Positions 13,270-62,082 are shown, counted from the stretch's first letter. The stretch is 64,000 nt of DNA from Chloroflexota bacterium (GCA_021779955.1 JAJXZS010000034.1:1-64000), one strand, 5' to 3'. A program made the numbers and translations. Notes: generated by a model from the sequence alone, not told the origin.

Positions 13270-13563
13270 ATGAGGATCGTGTCGATCGTGATTTTAGGCA
13301 TGATTTTGCTCCTGCTGCTGGCAGGATGCGTGCCTGCTGCGAATCCATTCGTGGGTACTCCAGACAGCACGGGTGTCATTGGAGGATTCTGGCAGGGATT
13401 GTGGCACGGGATCATCGCGCCGGTGACGTTCATCATTTCTCTCTTCAATTCCAACGTGACCATGTACGACGTGCACAATAACGGCGGCTGGTACAATTTC
13501 GGCTTTTTGCTCGGGGTCGGAGTCTGGGCAGGCGGAGGCGGCGCGGCATCTCGAAGACGATAA
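13270..13563 (+). CDS. Small lipoprotein
   Basis: The 97-residue protein has a signal peptide with lipobox LLLAGC (Cys 20). A short amphipathic middle part reads GGFWQGLWHGIIAPVTFIIS, and the end has a YNFGFLLGVGVWAGGGG segment. The WQGLWHG...ISLF pattern is frequent in small envelope proteins of uncertain role. GGGAGGG supports the start at 13270. It begins 23 bp after the flavodoxin gene and may share its transcript. Confidence 0.7.
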   Translation: MRIVSIVILGMILLLLLAGCVPAANPFVGTPDSTGVIGGFWQGLWHGIIAPVTFIISLFNSNVTMYDVHNNGGWYNFGFLLGVGVWAGGGGAASRRR

Positions 13564-13638
13564 TCCCTGGCGAATCGAGGGCGGGTTCGGAATTCGAGCA
13601 GCAATCCGTTCGAAGGATGAATTCGCCCTTTTTATTCC

Positions 13639-13668
13639 CTTGACATATAGATGATTATCAATATATAA
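13639..13668 (+). promoter_or_regulatory. arsR promoter with overlapping palindrome
   Basis: TTGACA and TATAAT lie about 18 bp apart just upstream of arsR. The spacer is an imperfect palindrome, ATATA-GATGATTATCAA-TATAT, centred on TGATTATCA. Its position over the promoter fits an ArsR operator that represses when arsenite is absent. Confidence 0.65.
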
Positions 13669-13685
13669 TATGCACGTGAGGTGTG

Positions 13686-13994
13686 ATGGGAACAGTTGAT
13701 TTCGCGAAAGCGCTGGCAGACGAGACAAGGCAGAAGATCATGGAGATTTGCTGCTGCCGGAAACTGAGCGTGAGCGAGATCGTGGAGCAGCTCAATGTGA
13801 CTCAGCCCACGGTTTCACATCACCTTAAAGTCTTACGTGATGCCGGCCTAGTCGATGTCGAGCGCCGCGGCAAGGAAATCTACTACACGCTCAACCAGGA
13901 TCGGGTTGCCAAAGCTTGCTGCCAGGTGGCGGGTACCTTTGCGCCCGAAGTTCCAGTAGAGATGGTTCAGGGCTGTAGAGATAAAAGCAAGTAA
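13686..13994 (+). CDS. arsR: ArsR-family metalloregulator
   Basis: This 102-residue winged-helix repressor has the recognition helix QPTVSHHLKVLRDAGLVDVE and the wing RRGKEIYYTL. The metal-sensing site at the start of helix 3 reads EICCCRKLSV (Cys 22-24), close to the ELCVCDL As(III) site of ArsR. A CC pair near the C-terminus may add ligands. It should repress its own promoter until trivalent arsenic binds. arsM lies 63 bp downstream, so both respond together. GAGGTG supports ATG 13686 over GTG 13683. Confidence 0.88.
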   Translation: MGTVDFAKALADETRQKIMEICCCRKLSVSEIVEQLNVTQPTVSHHLKVLRDAGLVDVERRGKEIYYTLNQDRVAKACCQVAGTFAPEVPVEMVQGCRDKSK

Positions 13995-14057
13995 TTTTTT
14001 TTGCGGTCAAACATAGACACATGTCTATATATCTATTTGTTCAACAAGGAGTGAGTA

Positions 14058-14894
14058 ATGGCAATTCGAATTTCATCAAGTAACGATCTCGAGATCAAGA
14101 AGGCAGTGCGAAAGCACTACGCGAGCGCGATCAAAGATCAGGCTGCGTGCTGCGGCTCAAGCTCGAACGGCTGTTGCGATGGTAACGGTAACACGGCCCA
14201 AATCGCGAAACTCTACGAAGATCCCGATTTCACCAGTCTGCCGCAAGATGTAACCGAGATTGCCTTTGGTTGCGGCGATCCTGTGACATTGGCTTCGCTG
14301 GTGCGAGGGCAGACGGTGCTCGACCTGGGTTCCGGCGGTGGCATTGATTGCTTCCTGGCGTCGAGGAAGGTGGGCGAAACCGGCCGCGTCATCGGCGTGG
14401 ATATGACGCCCGATATGATCGATCGCGCCCGCTCCAATCTCGAGAAGGTCAGAGCAAATAACGTAGATTTCAGGTTGGGTGAGATCGAGCACTTGCCTGT
14501 GGAGGACAGGATCGTGGATGTGGTCATCTCGAATTGCGTGATCAACCTGAGCACCGACAAACCCCAGGTCTTTCGAGAAATCTTCCGTGTGCTCAAACCA
14601 GGCGGGCGCTTGGCTGTCAGCGACATCGTGACGGATGGCGTCATTCCAGAAGAGATACGCGAGAGCATGCAGTCCTGGGCGGAGTGCTTCGCAGGCGCAT
14701 GGGACGCGAAAGACTACGTAAAAGCCATCACCGATGCAGGCTTCGTCAACGTCAAGGTGGTTCCAACGTACATGAATGAGGAAATCATTCAAGATAGCCT
14801 GAACAATTCTTCGGATCCAAATGCACAGTCGATGGACGCGTCTGAACTGAAAAAGAAAGTGTTCAGCGCCAAGATCACTGCTGAAAAACGATAA
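14058..14894 (+). CDS. arsM: Arsenite S-adenosylmethionine methyltransferase
   Basis: The 278-residue Rossmann-fold methyltransferase has SAM motif VLDLGSGGGIDCFLA and acidic VIGVDMTPDMI. The three arsenic-ligand cysteines of ArsM are present: Cys 72 (FGCGDP), Cys 160 (SNCVINL) and Cys 210 (AECFAGA). Two N-terminal CC pairs (31-32 and 39-40) are extra. It converts As(III) to methylated species. It follows arsR in a two-gene unit. No efflux pump or reductase is nearby, so methylation may be the detoxification route encoded here. Confidence 0.95.
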   Translation: MAIRISSSNDLEIKKAVRKHYASAIKDQAACCGSSSNGCCDGNGNTAQIAKLYEDPDFTSLPQDVTEIAFGCGDPVTLASLVRGQTVLDLGSGGGIDCFLASRKVGETGRVIGVDMTPDMIDRARSNLEKVRANNVDFRLGEIEHLPVEDRIVDVVISNCVINLSTDKPQVFREIFRVLKPGGRLAVSDIVTDGVIPEEIRESMQSWAECFAGAWDAKDYVKAITDAGFVNVKVVPTYMNEEIIQDSLNNSSDPNAQSMDASELKKKVFSAKITAEKR

Positions 14895-34707: not shown

Positions 34708-35301
34708 TCATTTTCCTTTGCGAAGGCCAAAAGGATCCCTAAAAAGGGGCGCCATCACCGGAAACACACCCGCTTCAATCGAGCGGATATCTTCGATGGA
34801 GATAAATGCTGAAGGATGAAAGGTATGGATCAGCATCTTTATGGTGTCAAGCGACTTGCGTGGGATAACGGTAAAGATCAGTTTGACCGGACCGGTAGCT
34901 CCCTCGCCGTCGTAAGATGTGACCCCAAATCCGCGTTCATGAAGGGCTTGCACCAGTTCATCACCGCCCAGAGGGAGAATAATGCGCACAGATATGGTGC
35001 CAATGGCGATCCTGTCCTCCAGCAGCATACCTATATAGTTGCCGGTGGCAAATCCTGCTGCATAACCCAGATAGGCGGTGATGCTTTGGAGGTGCTGCAC
35101 GAGTTGGCCTATCACAACTATCCAGATGAGCACCTCGAAGAATCCGAGAAAGGGGGCGATGTTTCTCTTTCCTCTTGACACCAAAATGATGCGCATTGTT
35201 CCAAAGGTCACGTCGCAGATACGCGCAAAAAAGATGATGATTGGCAAGAGAATCCACGAATATGTTTGAGCAGGTGAAAGACCCAATAGCGATATTTCCA
35301 T
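34708..35301 (-). CDS. DUF2179/UPF0316 membrane protein
   Basis: The 197-residue protein has three membrane helices (WILLPIIIFFARICDV, FLGFFEVLIWIVVIGQL, ITAYLGYAAGFATGNYIG) followed by a cytoplasmic domain rich in beta strands, with VTSYDGEGATGPVKLIFTVI. This is the UPF0316 (DUF5698 plus DUF2179) architecture; the DUF2179 domain of related proteins binds small ligands. AAGGGTG precedes the ATG. Function unknown. Confidence 0.82.
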   Translation of the reverse strand: MEISLLGLSPAQTYSWILLPIIIFFARICDVTFGTMRIILVSRGKRNIAPFLGFFEVLIWIVVIGQLVQHLQSITAYLGYAAGFATGNYIGMLLEDRIAIGTISVRIILPLGGDELVQALHERGFGVTSYDGEGATGPVKLIFTVIPRKSLDTIKMLIHTFHPSAFISIEDIRSIEAGVFPVMAPLFRDPFGLRKGK

Positions 35302-35337: not shown

Positions 35338-36681
35338 CTACTGAACCGGAGCTCCTTTAGTTCTACCCATCCATGCAAGATTTTCGAATTGGCCAAATTG
35401 TTCCTGAAATATTCTATAATACAGGAATTCTTCTTTTGAATTCAAAAGCCATCCGTTGGGTAATCTGCGACCCCTTTCAAAATCATGGTCTGAGATCGTG
35501 GAGTTTGCATAACGCGCAAGATCATCGTTTACCCCCGAGCCATTCCAGAATTTGGCCTTTTTGCGACGCAGGATGTTTTCAGGTAAGAGTCCTTTCACGG
35601 CCAGCCTGAGAATCCATTTTTCCACACCATCGTGGATTTTATATTGGGGTGGAATACGCATTGCGAAATCGACAACTGCTCGATTTAGAAAACACACATG
35701 CGCAACGAGGCCGTGAGCTGAAGCAGATCGATCTACACGCTGCAGAGCAGTATTGTGAAGCCTTCGCGTAATATCGATCAGCTCTTTGGGCAGATCGTGC
35801 AACTGCAATGATTTAAGATAATCATAGCCACCAAACAACTCGTCCCCGCCTTCGCCTGACAAGACATCACCCACAAATTCGGATGCCATTCCAGCAACGA
35901 GATAGTTCATCAATGTTGACCGGACTAACAACGCGTCGAAAGATTCGAGGTGGTAAATGACCTTTGGCAGGACAGCAATCAGGTCTTCACAGGCAACTAT
36001 CTTTTCATGATGATTTGTATTGAGCCATTCGGCCACTTGCCGTGAAGCCTTGACATCTTCTGAATCTGCGTAACCCACTGAGAATGTGTGCAAAGTCGAA
36101 ACCAAGGGACGCGCCAGGGCTGCCAGGGCACTTGAATCCAATCCGCCGGACAGCCATGAGCCGACCTCATTTCCTTTGATGCTTTGCTTCAATGCGCTGA
36201 TGAGCAGTCCTTTTAGTTGAACAGCAAGTATTTCCGGGGGATCTTGCAAGGGTTCTTTTTCTTCCAACGAAAAATAACTATGGACCTCGCCGCCATCATA
36301 GAATGAACCCGGGGGGAGTTCATGAATCATGTGAGTCAAGGGCAATAGCGCTTTTACTTCAGACGCAAAGCACAGATCGCCTTCTTGCGTTCTTCCGTAG
36401 TAAAGCGGTGCGACCCCAATCGGATCTCGTTTCAGGAAAAAGCTACTTGCCAACGGATATGCCATGGCATAATGGCTTTCAGTGGCATAATCGCGGACGA
36501 CGCGGTCTTCAGTCATGAGCCGGCCATCTTCTTCCTGAAATTTCGTCCAGGAGATCATTTCTGTTACTTGATCATCGAAATAAATATCCGAACCTTCATC
36601 ACCTCGATACTTTATTGATGAAAGCATTTCTTTCACTGTTTTTGATTGGTGGGATTTGGCGATCCCTGCGATAGCTGACAT
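35338..36681 (-). CDS. AsnB-like ATP-dependent amide synthetase without glutaminase cysteine
   Basis: The 447-residue protein is an asparagine-synthetase homologue. The synthetase half is intact: SWLSGGLDSSALAAL (PP-loop, about 176-190), DVLSGEGGDELFGGYDYL, and a late lysine region ILRRKKAKFWNGSG. The glutaminase half is altered: it starts MSAIAGI where AsnB has MCGIAGI, so Cys2 is Ser and Gly3 is Ala, and the domain is about 50 residues short. Loss of that Cys is shared with beta-lactam and carbapenam synthetases and some peptide cyclases, which form amides internally. AAAGGAAAAGAG supports ATG 36681. It is third in an operon with an opine-dehydrogenase-like enzyme. Confidence 0.85.
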   Translation of the reverse strand: MSAIAGIAKSHQSKTVKEMLSSIKYRGDEGSDIYFDDQVTEMISWTKFQEEDGRLMTEDRVVRDYATESHYAMAYPLASSFFLKRDPIGVAPLYYGRTQEGDLCFASEVKALLPLTHMIHELPPGSFYDGGEVHSYFSLEEKEPLQDPPEILAVQLKGLLISALKQSIKGNEVGSWLSGGLDSSALAALARPLVSTLHTFSVGYADSEDVKASRQVAEWLNTNHHEKIVACEDLIAVLPKVIYHLESFDALLVRSTLMNYLVAGMASEFVGDVLSGEGGDELFGGYDYLKSLQLHDLPKELIDITRRLHNTALQRVDRSASAHGLVAHVCFLNRAVVDFAMRIPPQYKIHDGVEKWILRLAVKGLLPENILRRKKAKFWNGSGVNDDLARYANSTISDHDFERGRRLPNGWLLNSKEEFLYYRIFQEQFGQFENLAWMGRTKGAPVQ

Positions 36682-36712
36682 CTCTTTTCCTTTCTTTGAA
36701 AAGTATAGTAGG

Positions 36713-37819
36713 TTATTCGATGATGCCTTCACTTACATAATGCATTAATTCGCCGACGCTAAGCTTGTCGATACCTAGCTTATCGAGTGTGCGGCCGCGT
36801 CTCCAATAATCCGTGCGGTGAACGATACTTGCCAGGCGGATCATGGCATCCATGCCCTGTACGGCCACTCCATAACGCTGACCGAGCGCTGCGATCGGCA
36901 CGAGGCTCATGGGAACATCTTCGAAGAGGTAACGATGATTGAGGGTGGGGGGAGCTTTAATGCCGTAATAGCCGGGCTGGTTGTGAATCGCCTCGAAGAG
37001 GTCCTCGCCCTTGGAGTTGTACGCCAGATCGAGCCATTCCAAGCCTGTGCGGGCGCGGATGCCGAGTGATGAAGCGACGGTGACGCGTTCACGATCCAGG
37101 GCCTCAAGCACGCGCGCCACAGATGGCGTGACGCCATCGATATAGAATTGATAGTCACCGTGGGTTGACTCGATCCAGCCCATATTGAGGAGGCTGAGCG
37201 CGGGGTGGAAGATGGCACCCATATTGTTCAGTCCGGTCTGCAGCACGTTCACGCCGTCGATAAACTGAGGATACGCCTCATGAATGGTATCCAACACAAG
37301 GCGTGTGCGCGTGGCCGGAAGGGCTGCCAGAGGCACCGCTTCCTTGATGCGGAAGATGCGCGCCTGCGCCGGCCCATCGGAGCGCGAAGCGTAGATGAAG
37401 GTTTCAGCCTCCGAGATGGTGATGTCTGCAGCGCAGCCGTTCTCTTTGAGCACTTTGGCGAATTCAATGGCGCCGCACGTACGCCCGGGGTGCAGAACGA
37501 CAATTTGACCATCTTTCAGACAGTTGGAGCAGTTCTTGGCGACCTCGGCATGGGCAGAAGAAGGGACGACCACCATCACCACGTCTGCCGTATCCAGTGC
37601 CTCAGACAAGTTGGATGTGACCCGCTCCAGACGGCCCAGGCCTTTCAAAGAACCATCATTGCTCTCGAGGTCGATCACACCCAATTCGCGGATTGCGGCA
37701 ATATGATCAGCGGTTCGGTTGTACAGGGTAGTCGGAAATCCCATTAAGGCAAGGTGGGCTGCCATGGCTTTGCCGCCATGGCCGGCACCAATCACGGTAT
37801 AGCGAGTCTTATGATTCAT
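36713..37819 (-). CDS. NAD/NADP octopine/nopaline (opine) dehydrogenase family enzyme
   Basis: The 368-residue enzyme should reductively join an amino acid to a 2-oxo acid, or act on a related N-carboxyalkyl amino acid. It has the Rossmann loop VIGAGHGGKAMAAHLALMG (residues 9-27), MVVVPSSAHAEVA, and the C-terminal opine-dehydrogenase domain with LNNMGAIFHPALSLLNMG (His 205) and STHGDYQFYIDGVTPSVA. Its start overlaps the upstream mutase stop as ATGA, so the two are translated together. The AsnB-like gene begins 31 bp after its stop. Substrates are unknown. Confidence 0.86.
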   Translation of the reverse strand: MNHKTRYTVIGAGHGGKAMAAHLALMGFPTTLYNRTADHIAAIRELGVIDLESNDGSLKGLGRLERVTSNLSEALDTADVVMVVVPSSAHAEVAKNCSNCLKDGQIVVLHPGRTCGAIEFAKVLKENGCAADITISEAETFIYASRSDGPAQARIFRIKEAVPLAALPATRTRLVLDTIHEAYPQFIDGVNVLQTGLNNMGAIFHPALSLLNMGWIESTHGDYQFYIDGVTPSVARVLEALDRERVTVASSLGIRARTGLEWLDLAYNSKGEDLFEAIHNQPGYYGIKAPPTLNHRYLFEDVPMSLVPIAALGQRYGVAVQGMDAMIRLASIVHRTDYWRRGRTLDKLGIDKLSVGELMHYVSEGIIE

Positions 37820-39459
37820 CGGTTTCTCCTTTGTAAACAGTCTTGTGTGCGTCTGTCTTCGGTTACCAAATCGCCGTCGGAATCTACTACACGGCATTGA
37901 CCCTGGACGATTTGAGTTCGAATTTGCCCCCGACCAAAAGGATTGTTCTTGAGCTGGGGCGCATCGAGAATGCCGCTGGTTACCGCGTGCGCCAGGGTGG
38001 CAGGATCCGTCAGAGGATCTTTTGTGCCGGGAGCGGCCAATTCACGGATGGCATTCAGCGTGACGGTTGTTTCTTCCACGAGTTCATTTGCCCTTGCCTG
38101 GACTCTTGGATCGGAAAGCATCTCAGGTGCTCCGGAGATTGCGTGCTCGATCGCACGGCGAGCGAGAGTTGCAGCTTCGATCACATCGTCGGCGGTGGCG
38201 GCATGATCGGCTTCAGTATGCCCAACAATATGCACAATATGAGGATGAAGAGCCATTTGAAGGTAGATGCTCACAGCAAGGTGCGCGCGCGACGCGACGG
38301 GATCGACAGGGTACGAAAGCAGGCCGGTGCGCGTCTGACGGTAGATGTGGAAGTTGCTGCCGGAGAGCGGGTCGATTAATTTCAACATCGCGAGCATCTT
38401 TGCCAGGTCCATGGCATCCGTCAAGCCGGGGGGACTATTGAACATCATTTGGGCGATGTACTCCTTCACGCCCATGGCTTTGGCATTGTAAGCGGAGAGA
38501 ACCGCGGCAGCGACGTAAACCACGTCTGGGGCATCGCGCATGCCCCAATGGTGGGGCTCATTGAGTTCGACGGGGATGCCGCGTTCGCCGTACCAGGCCA
38601 TGACCTGTTGATGTTCGCGGATCGAACCCTCAAGATCCCATGGCCCTCTGCCATCCATGCGATTGAACCAGAAGAGCGGGATGGCGCACCAGGAATTGCG
38701 GATGGTTTCGGTAAACACTTCTGCCTGGCGAATGAACTCGTCGGTGCCAGAGTAAGTGCGCATCAGGGGGAAGTTGCCCCTGCGGCTTGCGGCGTAGAGC
38801 ATACGATAATCGTCGGCAGAACGGACGGGAACCCCGCCGGCGCCCTTGCGCCGCGGATCCTGGCGCTCAGGGTGGAAGAAGTTTTCCTGGGCATCCTGGT
38901 CGGTGCCAAGCGAGATCACATCCAGTGCCCTGGCGTCGGCAATCTTCTCGATACCCTTGCGGGTCGCTTCTAGATCGGGTAATCCGAAATGATGCCTGAG
39001 CAGGGGATAAGGCGTTTTCCATTGAATACGTTCCACGGTAGTCTGCGGGTAGCTGGATACGACCCCTGCGGTAGATGCTTCTCCTTTCAAATAGGAGAGG
39101 ACATCTTCGGTCGATTCGTTGCCTGAGAAGACTTTTTCGAAGAAGCCCATCCGTTCGGCGCGCTCGGCCACAGGGGGAGTACCCCCGAAGGCAAAGCGGA
39201 CACCTTTGGCATGCAGTTCGTCTGCGGCTTCGGCAAATTGCGCCAAAAGCAGTTCGCCGTTTTCTGGAGTGAGCCGATAGGAAACGCCAACGAGGTCAGC
39301 CTTTTCACGAACAGCGGCGTCCAAAACGGTCTGGATGGGTACTGCGGGCCCCAGAAAGACGGTGCGCCAGCCGGCAGATTCTGCCAGGCGCAGGAAATTA
39401 GAAACGCCAGCGACATGAACACATTCCCCAATGGCAGCCGCTACAACGGTTTTGGTCAT
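37816..39459 (-). CDS. B12-binding mutase-like enzyme, substrate unknown
   Basis: The 547-residue protein begins with a cobalamin-binding Rossmann domain (about 1-135). GECVHVAG matches DxHxxG except that Asp is Cys, with the axial His kept, and VRFAFGGTPP follows. The remainder looks like a TIM-barrel with ERGIPVELNEPHHWGMRDAP, KAMGVKEYIAQMMFNSPPGL and HIVHIVGHTEADHAATADDV. The general plan recalls glutamate mutase E or aminomutases, but it is not a clear member. GGAGG sets the start at 39459; ATGA overlap joins it to the next gene. It leads the operon. Confidence 0.68.
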   Translation of the reverse strand: MTKTVVAAAIGECVHVAGVSNFLRLAESAGWRTVFLGPAVPIQTVLDAAVREKADLVGVSYRLTPENGELLLAQFAEAADELHAKGVRFAFGGTPPVAERAERMGFFEKVFSGNESTEDVLSYLKGEASTAGVVSSYPQTTVERIQWKTPYPLLRHHFGLPDLEATRKGIEKIADARALDVISLGTDQDAQENFFHPERQDPRRKGAGGVPVRSADDYRMLYAASRRGNFPLMRTYSGTDEFIRQAEVFTETIRNSWCAIPLFWFNRMDGRGPWDLEGSIREHQQVMAWYGERGIPVELNEPHHWGMRDAPDVVYVAAAVLSAYNAKAMGVKEYIAQMMFNSPPGLTDAMDLAKMLAMLKLIDPLSGSNFHIYRQTRTGLLSYPVDPVASRAHLAVSIYLQMALHPHIVHIVGHTEADHAATADDVIEAATLARRAIEHAISGAPEMLSDPRVQARANELVEETTVTLNAIRELAAPGTKDPLTDPATLAHAVTSGILDAPQLKNNPFGRGQIRTQIVQGQCRVVDSDGDLVTEDRRTQDCLQRRNR

Positions 39460-39480
39460 CGGTTTTCCTCCATCAAACAA

Positions 39481-39700
39481 AAGAGCGGCTGATCAGCCGC
39501 TCTTTCCAAATCGAAGGGGGTGCGCTGGAACCGATCAAGCACCCGCTGCTATAGGTGAGAAAACGGCCGACCGATCGAAATGCTCAAGTGAAATGTCATT
39601 TCCGAGTAAAGGATGATGATCGGGACGGAAAACAACTTCCGCAGTGCGATGGGACGGAAATGAACACAAAAATAAATGCGACCTGCTCGTGTGCAAGTAA
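39481..39700 (-). promoter_or_regulatory. Leader of the mutase operon with intrinsic-terminator hairpin (attenuator or riboswitch candidate)
   Basis: A perfect 10-bp stem, AAGAGCGGCT-GATC-AGCCGCTCTT (39481-39504), followed on the minus strand by TTTT, ends 21 bp before the mutase ATG. Farther upstream the RNA can form GGGTGC...GCACCC (about 39517-39546). Two direct repeats GGGACGGAAA lie at 39622-39631 and 39651-39660. No B12 box, T-box or SAM motif is recognised. A terminator between promoter and start implies conditional read-through. Confidence 0.55.
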
Positions 39701-55451: not shown

Positions 55452-57905
55452 ATGAGAGAAATCGATTTGAGCTCTTTATTCGGGACGATAAACGAGATGA
55501 TGCTGATGATCACGCCAGGCGGCATGATCGTCAAGGCAAACCCTGCATTAACCGATAAGCTTGGCTATCCGCCAAATGCTCTGGCAGGAAAATCGATCAA
55601 GTACATTCTGCCCAGCGAAGCGGCGGAAGAGATGGATCGGATCCTGCAAAAGATTGCAGAACTCAAGACCGGCTCATTTCGCCTTCCTTTTATCACCAAT
55701 CGGGGCGAAACATGCCAGGTTGAAATGGATATGAGCACCGGCACCTGGGACCAGAAAGATCTGATCGTTGCCATTTGCCGCGATGTAACCTACCGGACCG
55801 AGGTCGAGAAGGAAGAACGCGAGCAGCGAGTGCTGGCTTCAGCACTTGCGGACATGGCCATTCTTTTGAACTCGAGCCTGAATCTCGAAGAAGTGCTCGA
55901 TCGCATTCTCGATAATGTGGGCAGTGTGATACCAAGCACATCGTGCAATATCATGTTCGTCGAGGGCAATCATGCGCGAATCGTGCGCACGCGAGGGTAC
56001 GAATCGGTTGGCACCGAAGATCTCTTAAAGGCCCGCGTTTTTACTGTCAAGAAGATCAATTATCTGTACAAGATGGCCTATTCATTGCAACCCACAGTAT
56101 CTGAGGATACAGCGACAGATGCCAACTGGTCGCTAATACCTGAAGCCATGTGGGTGCGTTCTTATGTAGCAGCGCCAATCACTTTCCAGGGTAAACTGTT
56201 CGGCTTCATCAATTGCGACAATGAGAAAGCCGGTTTCTACAACCGCGGGCACGCGATGAAACTCAAATTATTTGCCGACCAGGCAGGTATTGCCATTGAA
56301 AATGCGGTTCTGTTCTCGGAAGCCAGGCGTCATGCACGGCAGATGACGCTGATCAACGATCTCACACGCGTATCGCTGGACTCGGACGATTTCGAAAACC
56401 TCCTCGAGAATCTACCTGCGCGCCTTAAGGAACTGTTCCAGGCACAAAATGTGTATATCAACCGCTGGGACGAGGCGGCCCAAACCGTCTATTGCATTGC
56501 CACAACCTATCCGCACAAAGCCAATTTTCACAAGCAGGTAAGCGAGTCCAGTGAAAGGTCGCTTACCCTATCCTGTCTCGAAGCGGGTAAAGCTGTCTAC
56601 ATTCACGGTCAACACAAGCTTTCCTCGGCAAAACGCAGCGACCGGGGAGTTTACTCAGAGAAGAACTTCCTGGCACTGCCGATGGTCGCCAATGGAGTAA
56701 AGATCGGCGCCATTGTGGCGGGATTTGCAGGCGACCATTCGAGTTCAGAGGTCGATCTGGCAATCGGTGAATACGCCGCAAATACGATCAGCCCCGTGAT
56801 TTCGAAGATTCTCTCTCTCGACCTTGAGCGGACGCAGTCTGAGCAATTGGGGCATGCGAACGCGCTCATTGCAGCCTTGAGCCGAGTTGGCACGTCCATC
56901 GTCAGCGCTGCAGACACATCGACAGTGATGAATTCACTTGGCAGCGAACTCGAAATGCTGGGAATCCACAGCATGATTGCTCTCATCGAGCCTGATTCGA
57001 ACTTTCTCGAGATTCGGTTCATCTCACAGGAGAGCACGATCTTGCCAGCAATCGAAAGAATGCTGCCTGAGAAGCACCTGATCCACAGGATTCCTGCCGA
57101 CAAGTTTCCGTTTTCGACCAATCTTTTCAAGGAGGGCAAACCACAGTTTATCGAAAATCCCGAGAGTATCGTTTCCTACATCATGCCCGAGATCGTAAGC
57201 CCATTCAAGCGGAGATTGCTGTCCATATTATCGATACGCAAGGATACGCGTGCGATGCTCCTGCCGCTAACGACTAAGGGAAGGATCAGCGGGGTGCTGG
57301 TGCTTTGGGGAGATCATCTCAAGCAGGTGGATACCGAAGCCTTTTCAATTTTTGGATATCAGACGTCTGCCGCTCTAGAAAATGCTGCACTGCTGGAGAC
57401 AATCAAGCGAATGGCTATCACAGATGAAATGACAGGAATATACAACCGCAGGGGGATAAACGAATACGGGCAGCATGAAATCGAAGTTGCCAAACGCATG
57501 GTTCGTCCCTTGAGCGCAATCATGTTCGACCTCGATCACTTCAAGGTCGTAAACGATACTTATGGACACCCCGTTGGCGATGAAGTGCTTTGCGAGATCG
57601 TCAGAAGGTGCAAGGAAAAAATACGAGAGATCGACCTTTTTGGTCGATACGGTGGTGAAGAGTTCCTGATTCTCGTTGTAGGTGCGGGGATCAAACAGGC
57701 AAGCATGGTGGCAGAGCGCCTGCGAGCCGTCGTTGGAGACAACCTCATTCAAACGGCAGCCGGTGATCTTGCCGTCACCATCAGCCTGGGCGTGACTGCC
57801 TTGTCGGACGATGTAATTACGATCGATGATATGATTAAAGAAGCGGATACTGCGCTCTACAATGCAAAGAATCGCGGTCGCAATAAAGTCGCAATAAAGG
57901 AATAA
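55452..57905 (+). CDS. Diguanylate cyclase with PAS and three GAF domains
   Basis: The 817-residue protein makes c-di-GMP. Order: PAS (1-120, MLMITPGGMIVKANPALTDK), GAF (about 130-285), GAF (about 300-455), GAF (about 475-640) and GGDEF (about 655-817). The active site is YGGEEF, and the RxxD inhibitory site REID sits five residues before GGEEF, so product feedback is expected. ITDEMTGIYNRRG opens the catalytic domain. No membrane segment, so it senses in the cytoplasm. The HD-GYP gene begins 7 bp after its stop. Confidence 0.93.
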   Translation: MREIDLSSLFGTINEMMLMITPGGMIVKANPALTDKLGYPPNALAGKSIKYILPSEAAEEMDRILQKIAELKTGSFRLPFITNRGETCQVEMDMSTGTWDQKDLIVAICRDVTYRTEVEKEEREQRVLASALADMAILLNSSLNLEEVLDRILDNVGSVIPSTSCNIMFVEGNHARIVRTRGYESVGTEDLLKARVFTVKKINYLYKMAYSLQPTVSEDTATDANWSLIPEAMWVRSYVAAPITFQGKLFGFINCDNEKAGFYNRGHAMKLKLFADQAGIAIENAVLFSEARRHARQMTLINDLTRVSLDSDDFENLLENLPARLKELFQAQNVYINRWDEAAQTVYCIATTYPHKANFHKQVSESSERSLTLSCLEAGKAVYIHGQHKLSSAKRSDRGVYSEKNFLALPMVANGVKIGAIVAGFAGDHSSSEVDLAIGEYAANTISPVISKILSLDLERTQSEQLGHANALIAALSRVGTSIVSAADTSTVMNSLGSELEMLGIHSMIALIEPDSNFLEIRFISQESTILPAIERMLPEKHLIHRIPADKFPFSTNLFKEGKPQFIENPESIVSYIMPEIVSPFKRRLLSILSIRKDTRAMLLPLTTKGRISGVLVLWGDHLKQVDTEAFSIFGYQTSAALENAALLETIKRMAITDEMTGIYNRRGINEYGQHEIEVAKRMVRPLSAIMFDLDHFKVVNDTYGHPVGDEVLCEIVRRCKEKIREIDLFGRYGGEEFLILVVGAGIKQASMVAERLRAVVGDNLIQTAAGDLAVTISLGVTALSDDVITIDDMIKEADTALYNAKNRGRNKVAIKE

Positions 57906-57912
57906 TCCAGGA

Positions 57913-60900
57913 ATGGCGGAAACGACTATCAATTCCAGCGCAGTTCCTCCGCCATCGGCTTCAGCCGGCGGCGAATTCGAGACGTTTGTTGCAAAGGTCA
58001 GCATGGCTGCATGCGTGCTCGACAGTGATGGCAGGATTCTTTACATCGACCCGGTCATCGCATCCGATAAAAAGCTCAAGGCTGGCGATCGGGCGATCAT
58101 TCACGAAGATCCAGTTTCCAAGAAAAAATATCTTCTCAATTCGGTTGATCAAGTTAATCTCCCATCGGGCGACGAAATCGGCTGCGTGATGGATTCGAGC
58201 TGGTGTGGCCAGCCCGCTCAATTTGTGATGCTCGAAGATGGACGCGCGGAAAAGCTTGCACAATTGCGCGAAAGCCAGAGGATGATGCAGACCCTGGTGA
58301 GCAATCTCCCGGGAATGGCATACCGCTGCAATTTCGACGCTGCATGGACAATGACCTACGTGAGCAGCCGTTGTTTCGAATTGACCGGGTATTCACAGGA
58401 CGATCTCGCCAATAACCGTTTCGTTTCCTATGGGGAATTGATCTTGCCGGCGGACAGGCGCAAGGTTTGGGAAACGATTCGGTCGGCAGTACTCGAAAAC
58501 AGGCCCTATCAGCTGACGTATCGCATTCAATCTAAAACTGGTTCTCTCAAGTGGGTGTGGGAGCAAGGTCGTACGGTTTACTCGGAAGAGGGCAAACGAA
58601 CCGGCATAGAGGGCTTGATCATCGATATCACCGACAGGCAGATCGCCGCAGAAGCCCTGGTCGAAAGTGAAGAACGCTACCGAAGCCTGTTACAGGCATG
58701 CCCCGATGCTGTGATCCTGATCGACCTGAAGAGTAATATCATGCTGTGCAATCAGAGACTCTGCGAGCTGGTGGGCGAGGCTGACCCAAGACACCTGATT
58801 GGAAAACCTGTGTTCAAGTTCCTAGATATTGGACAGCGCAGTGAGCAAGCCTCGAAGATCGCAAGGTCGTTGAGGAAAGACGCATCCGTCAGAGAAATGG
58901 GCACGATGATCATGGTCAACGGCAAACGCGTGCCAATCGAACTGAATATCGCCGCTGTACACAATTCCAGCGGGGCTCCAAATGGTTATCTTATCGTAGC
59001 CCAAAATATGAGCCAGCAAGATGAGACCCAACGTGCCTTACGGGAGAGCGATGCGATCTATCGTGTAATTGTTGAAGATAGCCCCCAGATGATCGTGAGG
59101 TTCAAACCGGATGGGGTGATCAGTTTTGCCAACGAGGCGTTTTGCCGATACTTTGGAGCCATGCGCCAGGAGTTGATCGGCAAGAGCTTAGAGGGTGTGA
59201 TCAATCGAACTTCCACAGGAGACTTCGAAAAAGTCCTCAAATTCGTGTCGCCGCAAATGGAACCTCTCGTCCAGGAATATCTGGAAAAGAAGGGCAAGGA
59301 TGACTCACGCTGGGTTCGCTGGGTCACCCGGTCGATCCTGGACAGTGAGAACCAGTTCATTGAGTACCAGACCGTTGGTGAGGACATTACCAGCCAGAAA
59401 AATGCAGAACAGACGCTCAGCGAATCGGAATTTCGATTTCGCGAACTGCTTGGCAACGTCAAGCTGATTGCCATCATTCTTGATTTACAGGGGACAGTCA
59501 CATACTGCAACACTTTCTTCTGTGATGTAGTGGGAATGAGCAAAGATGAAGTCGTCGGCAAGAACTGGCTGGAAAGTTTCATGTCCATCGACGATTCGAT
59601 CGCCTTTCGCAAATTGTTGCTCGAATGCGGGCTGACGGGAGTCATTCCTGCAAAAAGGGAAAATCTTATCATGACCAGACAAGGCGAGCAGCGCTTGATT
59701 GCCTGGACGAACACGACCCTAAGCGACAAAAACGGCCATATCACAGGCATCGCCAGCATTGGACAGGATATTACCGAGCGTAATTTTTCAGAAAAGATCC
59801 AGGCCGCGATCTACCAGGTTTCGCAATCAGCCAATCAGGCACACGACCTGGACCAGCTTTATCTCTCGATTCATCAGATTTTGCAGGAATTAATGCCGGC
59901 TGACAACTTCTTTATCGCGTTAATCGATGAGGAACAGGACCTGCTCAGTTTTCCTTATTTCGTTGACCAATTGGACACTCAACCCAAGCCCAAGAAGCCC
60001 GGCCGTGGACTAACCGAATATGTTTTGCGTACAGGTAAGACAGTACTTGTGAACCCCGAGGTGTTCAACCTTCTGGTCGAGGAAAATGAAGTCGAATCCA
60101 TTGGCACGGCGAGTGTAGACTGGCTTGGAGTGCCGCTCAAAGTCGAAAATCGCACCATTGGCGTAATGGTGGCGCAATCTTATTCCGAAGGGATCCGCTT
60201 CAAGTATCGAGACGAACAGATGATGGCGTTCGTGTCCACCCAGGTGGCGATGGCCATCGAGCGGAAGCGCGTAGAACAGGCGTTACGACGAAGCCAAAAA
60301 CGCAATGAACTGATCGTCGAGGCATCGACAGATGCCATTTTCGTCGAGACATTGGATGGAATAATCCTGGACTGTAATTCGGTGGCGACTCAACTCTACG
60401 GCTATTCGCACGAGCAGCTTTGCCAGATGACGGTCAGAGACCTGGTGCCTGCCGGCACAGAACCGGTCATGCCTGGGAACATAGGGCAGAACCTCGAAAA
60501 CCAGGCAGCCCTCGTTGAGACGGTGAACGTACGCGCCGATGATACGGTCTTTCCGATCGAGTTGAGCATGCGGCTGACGACCATCGAAGGCGACCAGGTG
60601 CTTGTGGCATACGTGCGTGATATCACCGAGCGTAAGCAAGCCCAGAATGCGATCATTGAGTCGGAAGCGAAATTCAGAGACCTGGCTGAGACGACCGCGG
60701 CCGGCATTTTCATCCACAGGGGCGAGAAATACCTCTACGTCAATCCGGCCTGGTGTCAGATGACCGGATATGGCGCCAACGAACTCAAAGAAATCAGAGT
60801 TTTCGACAAGGTATCTCCAGAATTGGTCGAAGATCTGAAGGAAAGATCGCGCATCCATTTGCGCGGCGCCCAGGATGTCGACCATTACGAGATCAAGTTC

Positions 60901-62082
60901 GAGACAAGGAGCAGGGAGAAGCGCTGGTTCGATGTCAATTCGAGCCTAATCAATTACGAGGGAAAGACGGCTATCATCAGCACGGCTCTGGACGTGACCG
61001 AACGGAAGCTGCATGAACATGAGATGGAAGCCATCGTGCAGATGAGTGAGATTTTGCGCGCCAAAACTAAACTCGATGAAATTCCGCCCACGATCCTGGA
61101 AATACTGCCTGACCTGCTGAACATCGAAGGCGCGCTGATGATCACACTCGATAAGAAGAACAAAGATCTGACCCGTTATTATGGGTCGGGCTCATGGAAG
61201 GCGCTCGAGGGGATCACACTTCAAAAAGACAAGGGCCTGGCAGGATATATCATCAATTCAGGAAAGCCATATATCAACCACTCTGCAAAGACGGACGAAC
61301 ATTTCGAATTTCCCGAAATGATCCAGACAATGACCTCGATCATTGGCTCGCCCATGATCGCCCAGGGGAAGATAATTGGAGCGCTGATCGTAGGATCGTC
61401 GCACCGGATGGAGGAGTTCGAAATTCACTTGCTGATGACGATCACAGACATCGCCGCAGGCGGGATGCACCGGGCTTACCTTTATGAACAAACCCTGGAG
61501 CAGACCGAAGAACTCAAGAACGCCTACAATGCCACCCTCGAGGGCTGGGCACATGCTCTCGAATTGCGCGATAAGGAAACCCAGGGTCACTCGCTTCGGA
61601 TTGCCAATTTCACCATCCGTTTAGCCCGGCGTATGGGTTTCGATGAGAATGAGATCGAAAACCTCCGTCAGGGCGCGCTGCTTCACGATATTGGCAAGAT
61701 GGGTATTCCCGATACCATTTTGCTCAAACCGGGCACGCTTACCGAGATGGAATGGACGATCATGCGCAAGCATCCAGCGTATGCGCGCGACATGCTGCTG
61801 CAGATTCCATTCTTCAAAGGCTCGATCGACGTGCCCTATTCGCATCACGAATGGTGGGATGGCTCCGGCTATCCTCAAGGCCTTGCAGGGGAGCAAATAC
61901 CGATGGCGGCAAGAATATTCGCCATTGTCGATGCCTGGGATGCCCTGATCTCCAACCGGCCTTACCGCAAAGCATGGGATCGAAAGGAAGCCCTGGCGCA
62001 TATCATCAACCAGGCCGGGACCCACTTCGACCCCGATGTCGTCGACGCGTTCGTGAAGCTGCTTCAGGAAGAAGGCGAATGA
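57913..62082 (+). CDS. Multi-PAS/GAF HD-GYP phosphodiesterase
   Basis: The 1389-residue protein should hydrolyse c-di-GMP. After about 115 residues of weakly defined N-terminus come PAS domains near 116-240, 253-370, 379-500 and 503-625, GAF at 630-790, PAS at 795-910 and 915-1035, GAF at 1050-1190, and HD-GYP at about 1200-1385. The catalytic core is complete: LLHDIGKMGIPD, HHEWWDGSGYPQGLAGEQIP and IVDAWDALISNRPYRKAW. It has no membrane helix. It follows the diguanylate cyclase directly, giving a make-and-break pair with up to eleven sensor modules between them. Confidence 0.94.
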   Translation: MAETTINSSAVPPPSASAGGEFETFVAKVSMAACVLDSDGRILYIDPVIASDKKLKAGDRAIIHEDPVSKKKYLLNSVDQVNLPSGDEIGCVMDSSWCGQPAQFVMLEDGRAEKLAQLRESQRMMQTLVSNLPGMAYRCNFDAAWTMTYVSSRCFELTGYSQDDLANNRFVSYGELILPADRRKVWETIRSAVLENRPYQLTYRIQSKTGSLKWVWEQGRTVYSEEGKRTGIEGLIIDITDRQIAAEALVESEERYRSLLQACPDAVILIDLKSNIMLCNQRLCELVGEADPRHLIGKPVFKFLDIGQRSEQASKIARSLRKDASVREMGTMIMVNGKRVPIELNIAAVHNSSGAPNGYLIVAQNMSQQDETQRALRESDAIYRVIVEDSPQMIVRFKPDGVISFANEAFCRYFGAMRQELIGKSLEGVINRTSTGDFEKVLKFVSPQMEPLVQEYLEKKGKDDSRWVRWVTRSILDSENQFIEYQTVGEDITSQKNAEQTLSESEFRFRELLGNVKLIAIILDLQGTVTYCNTFFCDVVGMSKDEVVGKNWLESFMSIDDSIAFRKLLLECGLTGVIPAKRENLIMTRQGEQRLIAWTNTTLSDKNGHITGIASIGQDITERNFSEKIQAAIYQVSQSANQAHDLDQLYLSIHQILQELMPADNFFIALIDEEQDLLSFPYFVDQLDTQPKPKKPGRGLTEYVLRTGKTVLVNPEVFNLLVEENEVESIGTASVDWLGVPLKVENRTIGVMVAQSYSEGIRFKYRDEQMMAFVSTQVAMAIERKRVEQALRRSQKRNELIVEASTDAIFVETLDGIILDCNSVATQLYGYSHEQLCQMTVRDLVPAGTEPVMPGNIGQNLENQAALVETVNVRADDTVFPIELSMRLTTIEGDQVLVAYVRDITERKQAQNAIIESEAKFRDLAETTAAGIFIHRGEKYLYVNPAWCQMTGYGANELKEIRVFDKVSPELVEDLKERSRIHLRGAQDVDHYEIKFETRSREKRWFDVNSSLINYEGKTAIISTALDVTERKLHEHEMEAIVQMSEILRAKTKLDEIPPTILEILPDLLNIEGALMITLDKKNKDLTRYYGSGSWKALEGITLQKDKGLAGYIINSGKPYINHSAKTDEHFEFPEMIQTMTSIIGSPMIAQGKIIGALIVGSSHRMEEFEIHLLMTITDIAAGGMHRAYLYEQTLEQTEELKNAYNATLEGWAHALELRDKETQGHSLRIANFTIRLARRMGFDENEIENLRQGALLHDIGKMGIPDTILLKPGTLTEMEWTIMRKHPAYARDMLLQIPFFKGSIDVPYSHHEWWDGSGYPQGLAGEQIPMAARIFAIVDAWDALISNRPYRKAWDRKEALAHIINQAGTHFDPDVVDAFVKLLQEEGE

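Follow-up and report, generated by a model that had tools for sequence, protein, structure and literature searches.

A B12-domain mutase, an opine-dehydrogenase-family enzyme and an AsnB relative in Anaerolineae: what looks like a new amino-acid pathway rather than a beta-lactam maker

What does an operon do that joins a cobalamin-domain protein, an opine-dehydrogenase-family enzyme and a homologue of the asparagine synthetase AsnB that has lost its glutaminase cysteine? Such a set of genes is present in the 64,000-nucleotide stretch of Chloroflexota DNA analysed here (the window), which comes from contig C12 of a 2.83 Mb genome; judged from its relatives, the host is a member of the Anaerolineae. 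A preliminary description had proposed an undescribed pathway in which an amino acid supplied by the mutase is built into an opine by the dehydrogenase and the AsnB homologue closes an internal amide, giving a beta-lactam, a lactam or a cyclic opine. Our analysis makes the first two genes and their AsnB relative look like a new amino-acid pathway, rather than a beta-lactam maker.

The locus and the spread of the mutase-dehydrogenase pair

The genes of the unit all lie on the minus strand. The first encodes a B12-domain mutase of 547 residues (37816–39459; PF02310, E-value 5.9e-11) and runs from an ATG at 39459 to a TGA that ends at 37816. The ATG of the second gene (37819–37817) overlaps this stop codon in an ATGA, and its TAA ends at 36713; the product (36713–37819; PF02317, 2.2e-48) is an opine-dehydrogenase-family NAD(P) enzyme of 368 residues (ODH). 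The third gene follows after 31 bp, with AAAGGAAAAGAG upstream of its start and a ribosome-binding site present, and extends from an ATG at 36681 to a stop that ends at 35338. It encodes an AsnB-type amide synthetase of 447 residues with a dead glutaminase (35338–36681; PF00733, 3.6e-62), the N-terminus of which reads MSAIAGIAKS..., with Ser at position 2. The coupling of the three genes on one strand is as had been described, and so are the Ser2, the shortened glutaminase and the intact synthetase motifs of the AsnB homologue, borne out by the sequence and by Pfam. The limits first given for the unit, 35338–39700, do include the three genes; the upper one is too far, as the unit ends at 39459 and none of its genes reaches beyond, and a further gene lies downstream. 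This gene (34708–35301) encodes a DUF5698 and DUF2179 membrane protein (PF18955, 7e-24; PF10035, 1.5e-12), starts 36 bp past the stop of the AsnB-like gene on the same strand and is the probable fourth gene of the unit; a homologue was found within 6 kb of the mutase gene, on the same strand, in 26 of the best 80 named loci among 438 relatives. A Rfam scan of the window, of three type-strain loci and of locus L112 returned tRNAs only, no cobalamin riboswitch or other element being found. Elsewhere in the window, positions 55452–62082 encode a GGDEF protein and then a 1389-aa sensor with multiple PAS, GAF and HD domains.

The mutase was searched for in 199 genomes of the class, which gave about 50 strong matches, and 55 loci were read around such matches; scanning a single genome for each species gave 438 mutase relatives, the best 80 named loci of which were examined. 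An ODH gene was found within 0.8 kb of the mutase gene and on the same strand in 48 of the 55 sampled class loci, several of the exceptions being contig ends, and in 79 of the best 80 named loci of the 438; mutase-ODH adjacency was seen in more than 120 loci. All of these best 80 loci are annotated as Chloroflexota, Anaerolineae predominating. The mutase is about 70% identical across the Anaerolineae and is rare beyond the class, a sample of the phylum yielding three matches from other classes. Within 6 kb of the mutase, an AsnB homologue (Cys-less or Cys2) was present in 22 of the best 80 named loci of the 438 and in 3 of the 55 sampled class loci, and the majority of the AsnB homologues that accompany the pair have an intact Cys2 and a full glutaminase. 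The recurrence of the mutase-ODH adjacency, and of AsnB homologues beside the pair, is more than chance would give. In conclusion, the conserved unit is the mutase-ODH pair, and AsnB homologues are its recurrent, optional partners; the trio originally described is conserved as to the pair and not as to its third member.

In a literature search that covered a minority of the subscription papers, nothing was found that links opine dehydrogenase, or Anaerolineae, to glutamate mutase or to adenosylcobalamin. The mutase-ODH pair is widespread in Anaerolineae and apparently undescribed; the novelty claimed for the pathway is supported for the pair, the families of which no paper found combines, and its beta-lactam branch is disfavoured.

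The mutase, the dehydrogenase and their neighbours in relatives

The cobalamin domain of the mutase is N-terminal (approximately residues 1–125), and a TIM-barrel catalytic domain is fused behind it. An AlphaFold model made with 46 homologues (pLDDT 88) was compared with the PDB by Foldseek. First, the top match was the E chain of glutamate mutase (1cb7_B, E-value 2e-14, TMt 0.65), followed by ornithine 4,5-aminomutase and lysine 5,6-aminomutase. Second, the N-terminal domain matched the glutamate mutase S chain. Profile alignment (hhalign) with three genuine MutE proteins was collinear across the whole barrel (E-value 1.2e-5), and some homologues of the mutase exceeded the PF06368 cut-off of 26.6 bits (31.3 and 28.1 bits). 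From this fold, the cobalamin domain and the MutL fusions of relatives described below, we infer a radical mutase that depends on adenosylcobalamin, consists of a single chain and has the glutamate-mutase fold.

The mutase shares with glutamate mutase (MutS/MutE, GlmS/GlmE) the TIM barrel and the B12 domain, and differs from it in having both domains in one chain, the B12 domain first. Residues C13, H15 and G18 are invariant in the 46-sequence alignment, so that the cobalamin motif, C13-V-H15-V-A-G18, keeps the His and the Gly of DxHxxG and has an invariant Cys in place of its Asp. In glutamate mutase, R66, R100 and R149, the positions of which were checked, form the arginine claw that binds glutamate. 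In the profile alignment these residues face H157, Q191 and Y236 of the mutase, and R155 and R234, both invariant in it, are offset from the claw positions by two residues. R213, R271, E298, R377 and H410 are among the further conserved residues of the mutase. Because the claw positions are not kept, the substrate predicted from the alignment is probably other than glutamate. Genuine MutE is encoded separately in 3 of 150 class genomes. Operons for D-ornithine 4,5-aminomutase and lysine 5,6-aminomutase likewise combine an AdoCbl mutase of similar fold with an NAD(P) dehydrogenase, which acts on the mutase product. The dehydrogenase found here is of the opine family, and the catalytic domain of the mutase is covered by no Pfam or NCBIfam family. 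A separate ornithine-degradation operon was observed in the host's own genome (L106, C9:1-14000), with genes for a racemase, MutL, aminomutase E, OrtA/OrtB-like proteins and a dehydrogenase-like protein; MutL was assigned by Pfam and the other genes by inspection.

The nearest solved relative of ODH is N-(1-D-carboxyethyl)-L-norvaline dehydrogenase (CENDH, 1bg6; phmmer E-value 1.4e-75), and His205, Arg296 and Asp301 of ODH align with the catalytic His, the Arg and the catalytic Asp of that enzyme. From its family and these conserved residues, ODH is predicted to be an NAD(P)-dependent opine-type dehydrogenase. CENDH and octopine dehydrogenase belong to the same family; unlike them, ODH is almost always tied to a B12 mutase.

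In deep relatives, as with glutamate mutase, MutL is a partner of the mutase. Fusions of mutase and MutL of about 1240 aa occur in L037-L041 and L253-L260 (PF13941, 2.2e-89), and other deep relatives have their own MutL gene beside the mutase gene. A general dependence of the mutase on MutL was considered and is not supported by co-occurrence: MutL was present in 31 of 41 mutase-positive and in 21 of 34 mutase-negative genomes (p = 0.22), it was absent, above cut-off, from 10 mutase-positive genomes, and a dedicated or fused MutL is limited to the deep relatives. Downstream of the pair, the MutL-fusion group and L261 have genes for a solute-binding protein of family 5, for two permeases and for ATPases of the oligopeptide type; several of these loci also have one for an amidohydrolase-family protein (PF03417). 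This importer is limited to deep relatives (about 36–54% identical) and is absent beside the window operon. These neighbours suggest that in deep relatives the pair serves to take up and break down a compound resembling an opine or a peptide, a context that lends no support to the biosynthetic direction, joining and then cyclising, that had first been assigned to the operon. An RpiR-type regulator precedes the pair in most of the MutL-fusion group; it was not retained as a general partner, being found mainly in that deep group and also in L081 and L112. The cluster of L255 for the mutase-MutL fusion, ODH and the importer ends with an MTTB-family gene (13488–14873; PF06253, 4.9e-80).

Genes for cyclic-di-AMP receptors (PF06153) were found within 6 kb of the mutase in 10 of the 55 sampled class loci and in 8 of the best 80 named loci; L064, L074, L077, L081, L174 and L261 are among the loci with such a gene, and the receptor protein of L253 also matches DUF2179, weakly. 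AsnB relatives elsewhere make amide osmolytes, such as N-acetylglutaminylglutamine amide. With this precedent, these receptor genes and the DUF2179 membrane protein found downstream in many loci could mean that the product of the unit, made under second-messenger control, is neutral, bears an amide and serves as an osmolyte or nitrogen store. We consider this improbable, as both kinds of neighbour occur in a minority of loci, no cyclic-di-AMP receptor was found beside the window operon, and the importer of the deep relatives is of the oligopeptide type.

The AsnB-like protein

The glutaminase domain of the window protein is truncated, since its GATase_7 match is confined to the last 35 positions of the model. 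The segment that would align with the glutamine-binding motifs RLxI, NGEI and SDTE is deleted, and Ser2 replaces the Cys. On the synthetase side, SGGLDSS, SGEGGDE and the catalytic Lys are all intact. The PP-loop (S178-D182) is kept, as are S275, E277, D280, R315 and K375, equivalent to Ser-362, Glu-364, Asp-367, Arg-403 and Lys-466 of human asparagine synthetase (ASNS), the roles of which in the synthetase site have been described (PMC6748925, PMC11615228). All Cys-less members compared keep the PP-loop and the equivalents of Glu-364, Asp-367, Arg-403 and Lys-466, and all have lost Cys2, the segment that binds glutamine and the equivalents of Glu-414 and Arg-416, which residues in the human enzyme are near the glutamine pocket and the tunnel (PMC6748925, PMC11615228). 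At the position of human Asp-400 the window protein has Ala, and the Cys2 sister family has Asn; because of this replacement, the amino-acid pocket differs from that of asparagine synthetase.

Beta-lactam and carbapenam synthetases are also AsnB descendants without a glutaminase Cys, and this likeness, together with the opine-type dehydrogenase in the same operon and the possibility that an intramolecular amine stands in for ammonia, is what speaks for closure of an internal amide. The analogy was not supported by closer comparison. At the position of AsnB Glu348, CarA and beta-lactam synthetase have a Tyr (TGYG), whereas the window protein (SGEGGDE) and all 13 other Cys-less proteins have Glu. 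With phmmer, the window protein scored 170.6 bits against AsnB, 87.9 against CarA and 57.2 against beta-lactam synthetase. The AlphaFold model (pLDDT 91) had AsnB (1ct9) as its first Foldseek match (TM 0.85/0.77), with beta-lactam synthetase ninth (0.74/0.68), so that the structure comparison suggested earlier came out in favour of AsnB. Best alignment with asparagine synthetases had been named beforehand as the outcome that would speak against the proposal, and it is what was found as far as the beta-lactam branch is concerned. Membership of the beta-lactam synthetases was rejected on the Glu in place of Tyr and on the scores. The internal-amide pathway as a whole is distinctly improbable: AsnB is nearest in sequence and structure, most AsnB homologues beside the pair are Cys2 proteins with a full glutaminase, and the majority of pairs have no AsnB at all.

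AsnB and human ASNS are thus the best sequence and structure matches of the protein, which keeps Glu348, Asp351, Arg387 and the essential Lys, and differs from them by the loss of the Cys, of the glutamine site and of the interface Glu and Arg, and by a change at Asp384. It scores below the cut-offs of the curated asparagine synthase models (318 vs 499 bits for NF006949; 214.4 vs 267.1 bits for TIGR01536). In the tree, the Cys-less proteins form one clade of 14 with a support of 100/100 and a long stem, sister to ordinary Cys2 AsnB proteins; a single origin of the Cys-less proteins is well supported by this alignment-based tree. The simplest reading is of an amide synthetase that takes ammonia and an aspartate-like amino acid as its substrates.

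The window copy is itself on a long branch (0.68), and of the 145 positions at which the other Cys-less proteins are conserved it differs at 11, a number exceeded by one member only, as might be expected of a gene that is decaying and functionless in its host. Decay is very improbable, given the open frame, the ribosome-binding site, the intact catalytic residues and the confident predicted fold; furthermore, several of the 11 departures are to residues that AsnB proteins themselves use.

Does the protein then belong to the chemistry of the pair? Among 396 class genomes searched for AsnB, 20 had a strong match. The mutase is present in 9 of the 10 genomes with a Cys-less protein, the tenth being a 70%-complete MAG, and the AsnB proteins of four near-complete mutase-free genomes with a match are full-length. 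Seven Cys-less genes have readable flanks: four lie beside the pair (window, L057, L109 and L112) and three apart from it (L113, L115 and L116). In L147 (12884–15806), a Cys-less and a Cys2 AsnB gene are in tandem behind the pair. The third gene is a lineage-specific partner of the pair. The host genome has genes for an aspartate--tRNA(Asn) ligase of the non-discriminating kind (472.2 bits, cut-off 353) and for two GatB proteins, and no asparaginyl-tRNA synthetase above cut-off was found in it; free asparagine is therefore not required for translation, which favours a dedicated role of the AsnB-like protein.

A plain ammonia-dependent asparagine synthetase, co-transcribed with the pair and outside its chemistry, would also have AsnB-type active-site residues and could lie elsewhere in the genome, as in L113, L115 and L116, and with 576.5 bits the Cys2 sister family found next to the pair is above the 499-bit cut-off of the curated model for asparagine synthase B. 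We judge this possible and yet unlikely: AsnB proteins of two sister lineages are repeatedly found next to the pair, in varying positions and orders, the Cys-less genomes nearly all have the mutase, the host has the tRNA-dependent route to asparagine, and Cys-less members fall under the asparagine-synthase cut-offs.

Some further genes were noted around AsnB homologues. A D-glutamate cyclase-like gene (PF14336, 1.4e-70) lies between the mutase and Cys-less AsnB genes at L057:3403-4479; occurring in one genome only (L057 = L155), it was discarded as a general pathway member. The host's own genome encodes a second AsnB homologue, of 574 aa and with Cys2, among glycosyltransferase-like genes (L108:5407-7131, C6). 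L124:1-1527 encodes a full-length AsnB homologue with Ser for Cys2, the neighbours of which are, by inspection, two trimethylamine-methyltransferase-like genes.

A proposed pathway and its meaning

The reading that we favour, with modest confidence and with its reactions predicted throughout, is a two-enzyme core of amino-acid or opine metabolism to which some lineages have added an ammonia-using amidation step by an AsnB-like protein. In this core, the AdoCbl radical mutase would rearrange an amino-acid-like substrate, probably not glutamate, and ODH would oxidatively split, or reductively form, a secondary amine that links an amino acid to an oxo acid. The likelier ancestral direction would be catabolic, with an opine- or peptide-like compound imported and broken down, because of the oligopeptide-type importer and the amidohydrolase-family protein of the deep relatives. 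In the window and in some lineages, the AsnB-like protein would then act on an aspartate-like alpha-amino acid, adenylating its side-chain carboxylate and amidating this with free ammonia, the predicted nitrogen donor since the glutamine-hydrolysing half and the tunnel-side residues are lost. More specifically, and only tentatively, a new AdoCbl rearrangement of a substrate other than glutamate may feed or drain an opine-type secondary amine, and the product may be amidated by the glutaminase-less AsnB.

The pair is open to testing, as four cultured type strains, all among the best 80 named loci of the 438, have it: Anaerolinea thermolimosa IMO-1, Levilinea saccharolytica KIBI-1, Ornatilinea apprima P3M-1 and Bellilinea caldifistulae GOMI-1. 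Few carbon-skeleton mutases with the glutamate-mutase fold are known to us, and to our knowledge each new substrate has so far brought a further metabolic route with it. As a natural experiment, the AsnB-like clade shows an amidotransferase that has lost its glutamine half and kept its synthetase half. Anaerolineae are anaerobes, abundant in digesters and sediments, the amino-acid metabolism of which is poorly known; if the proposal is true, a B12-dependent opine pathway would be widespread among them.
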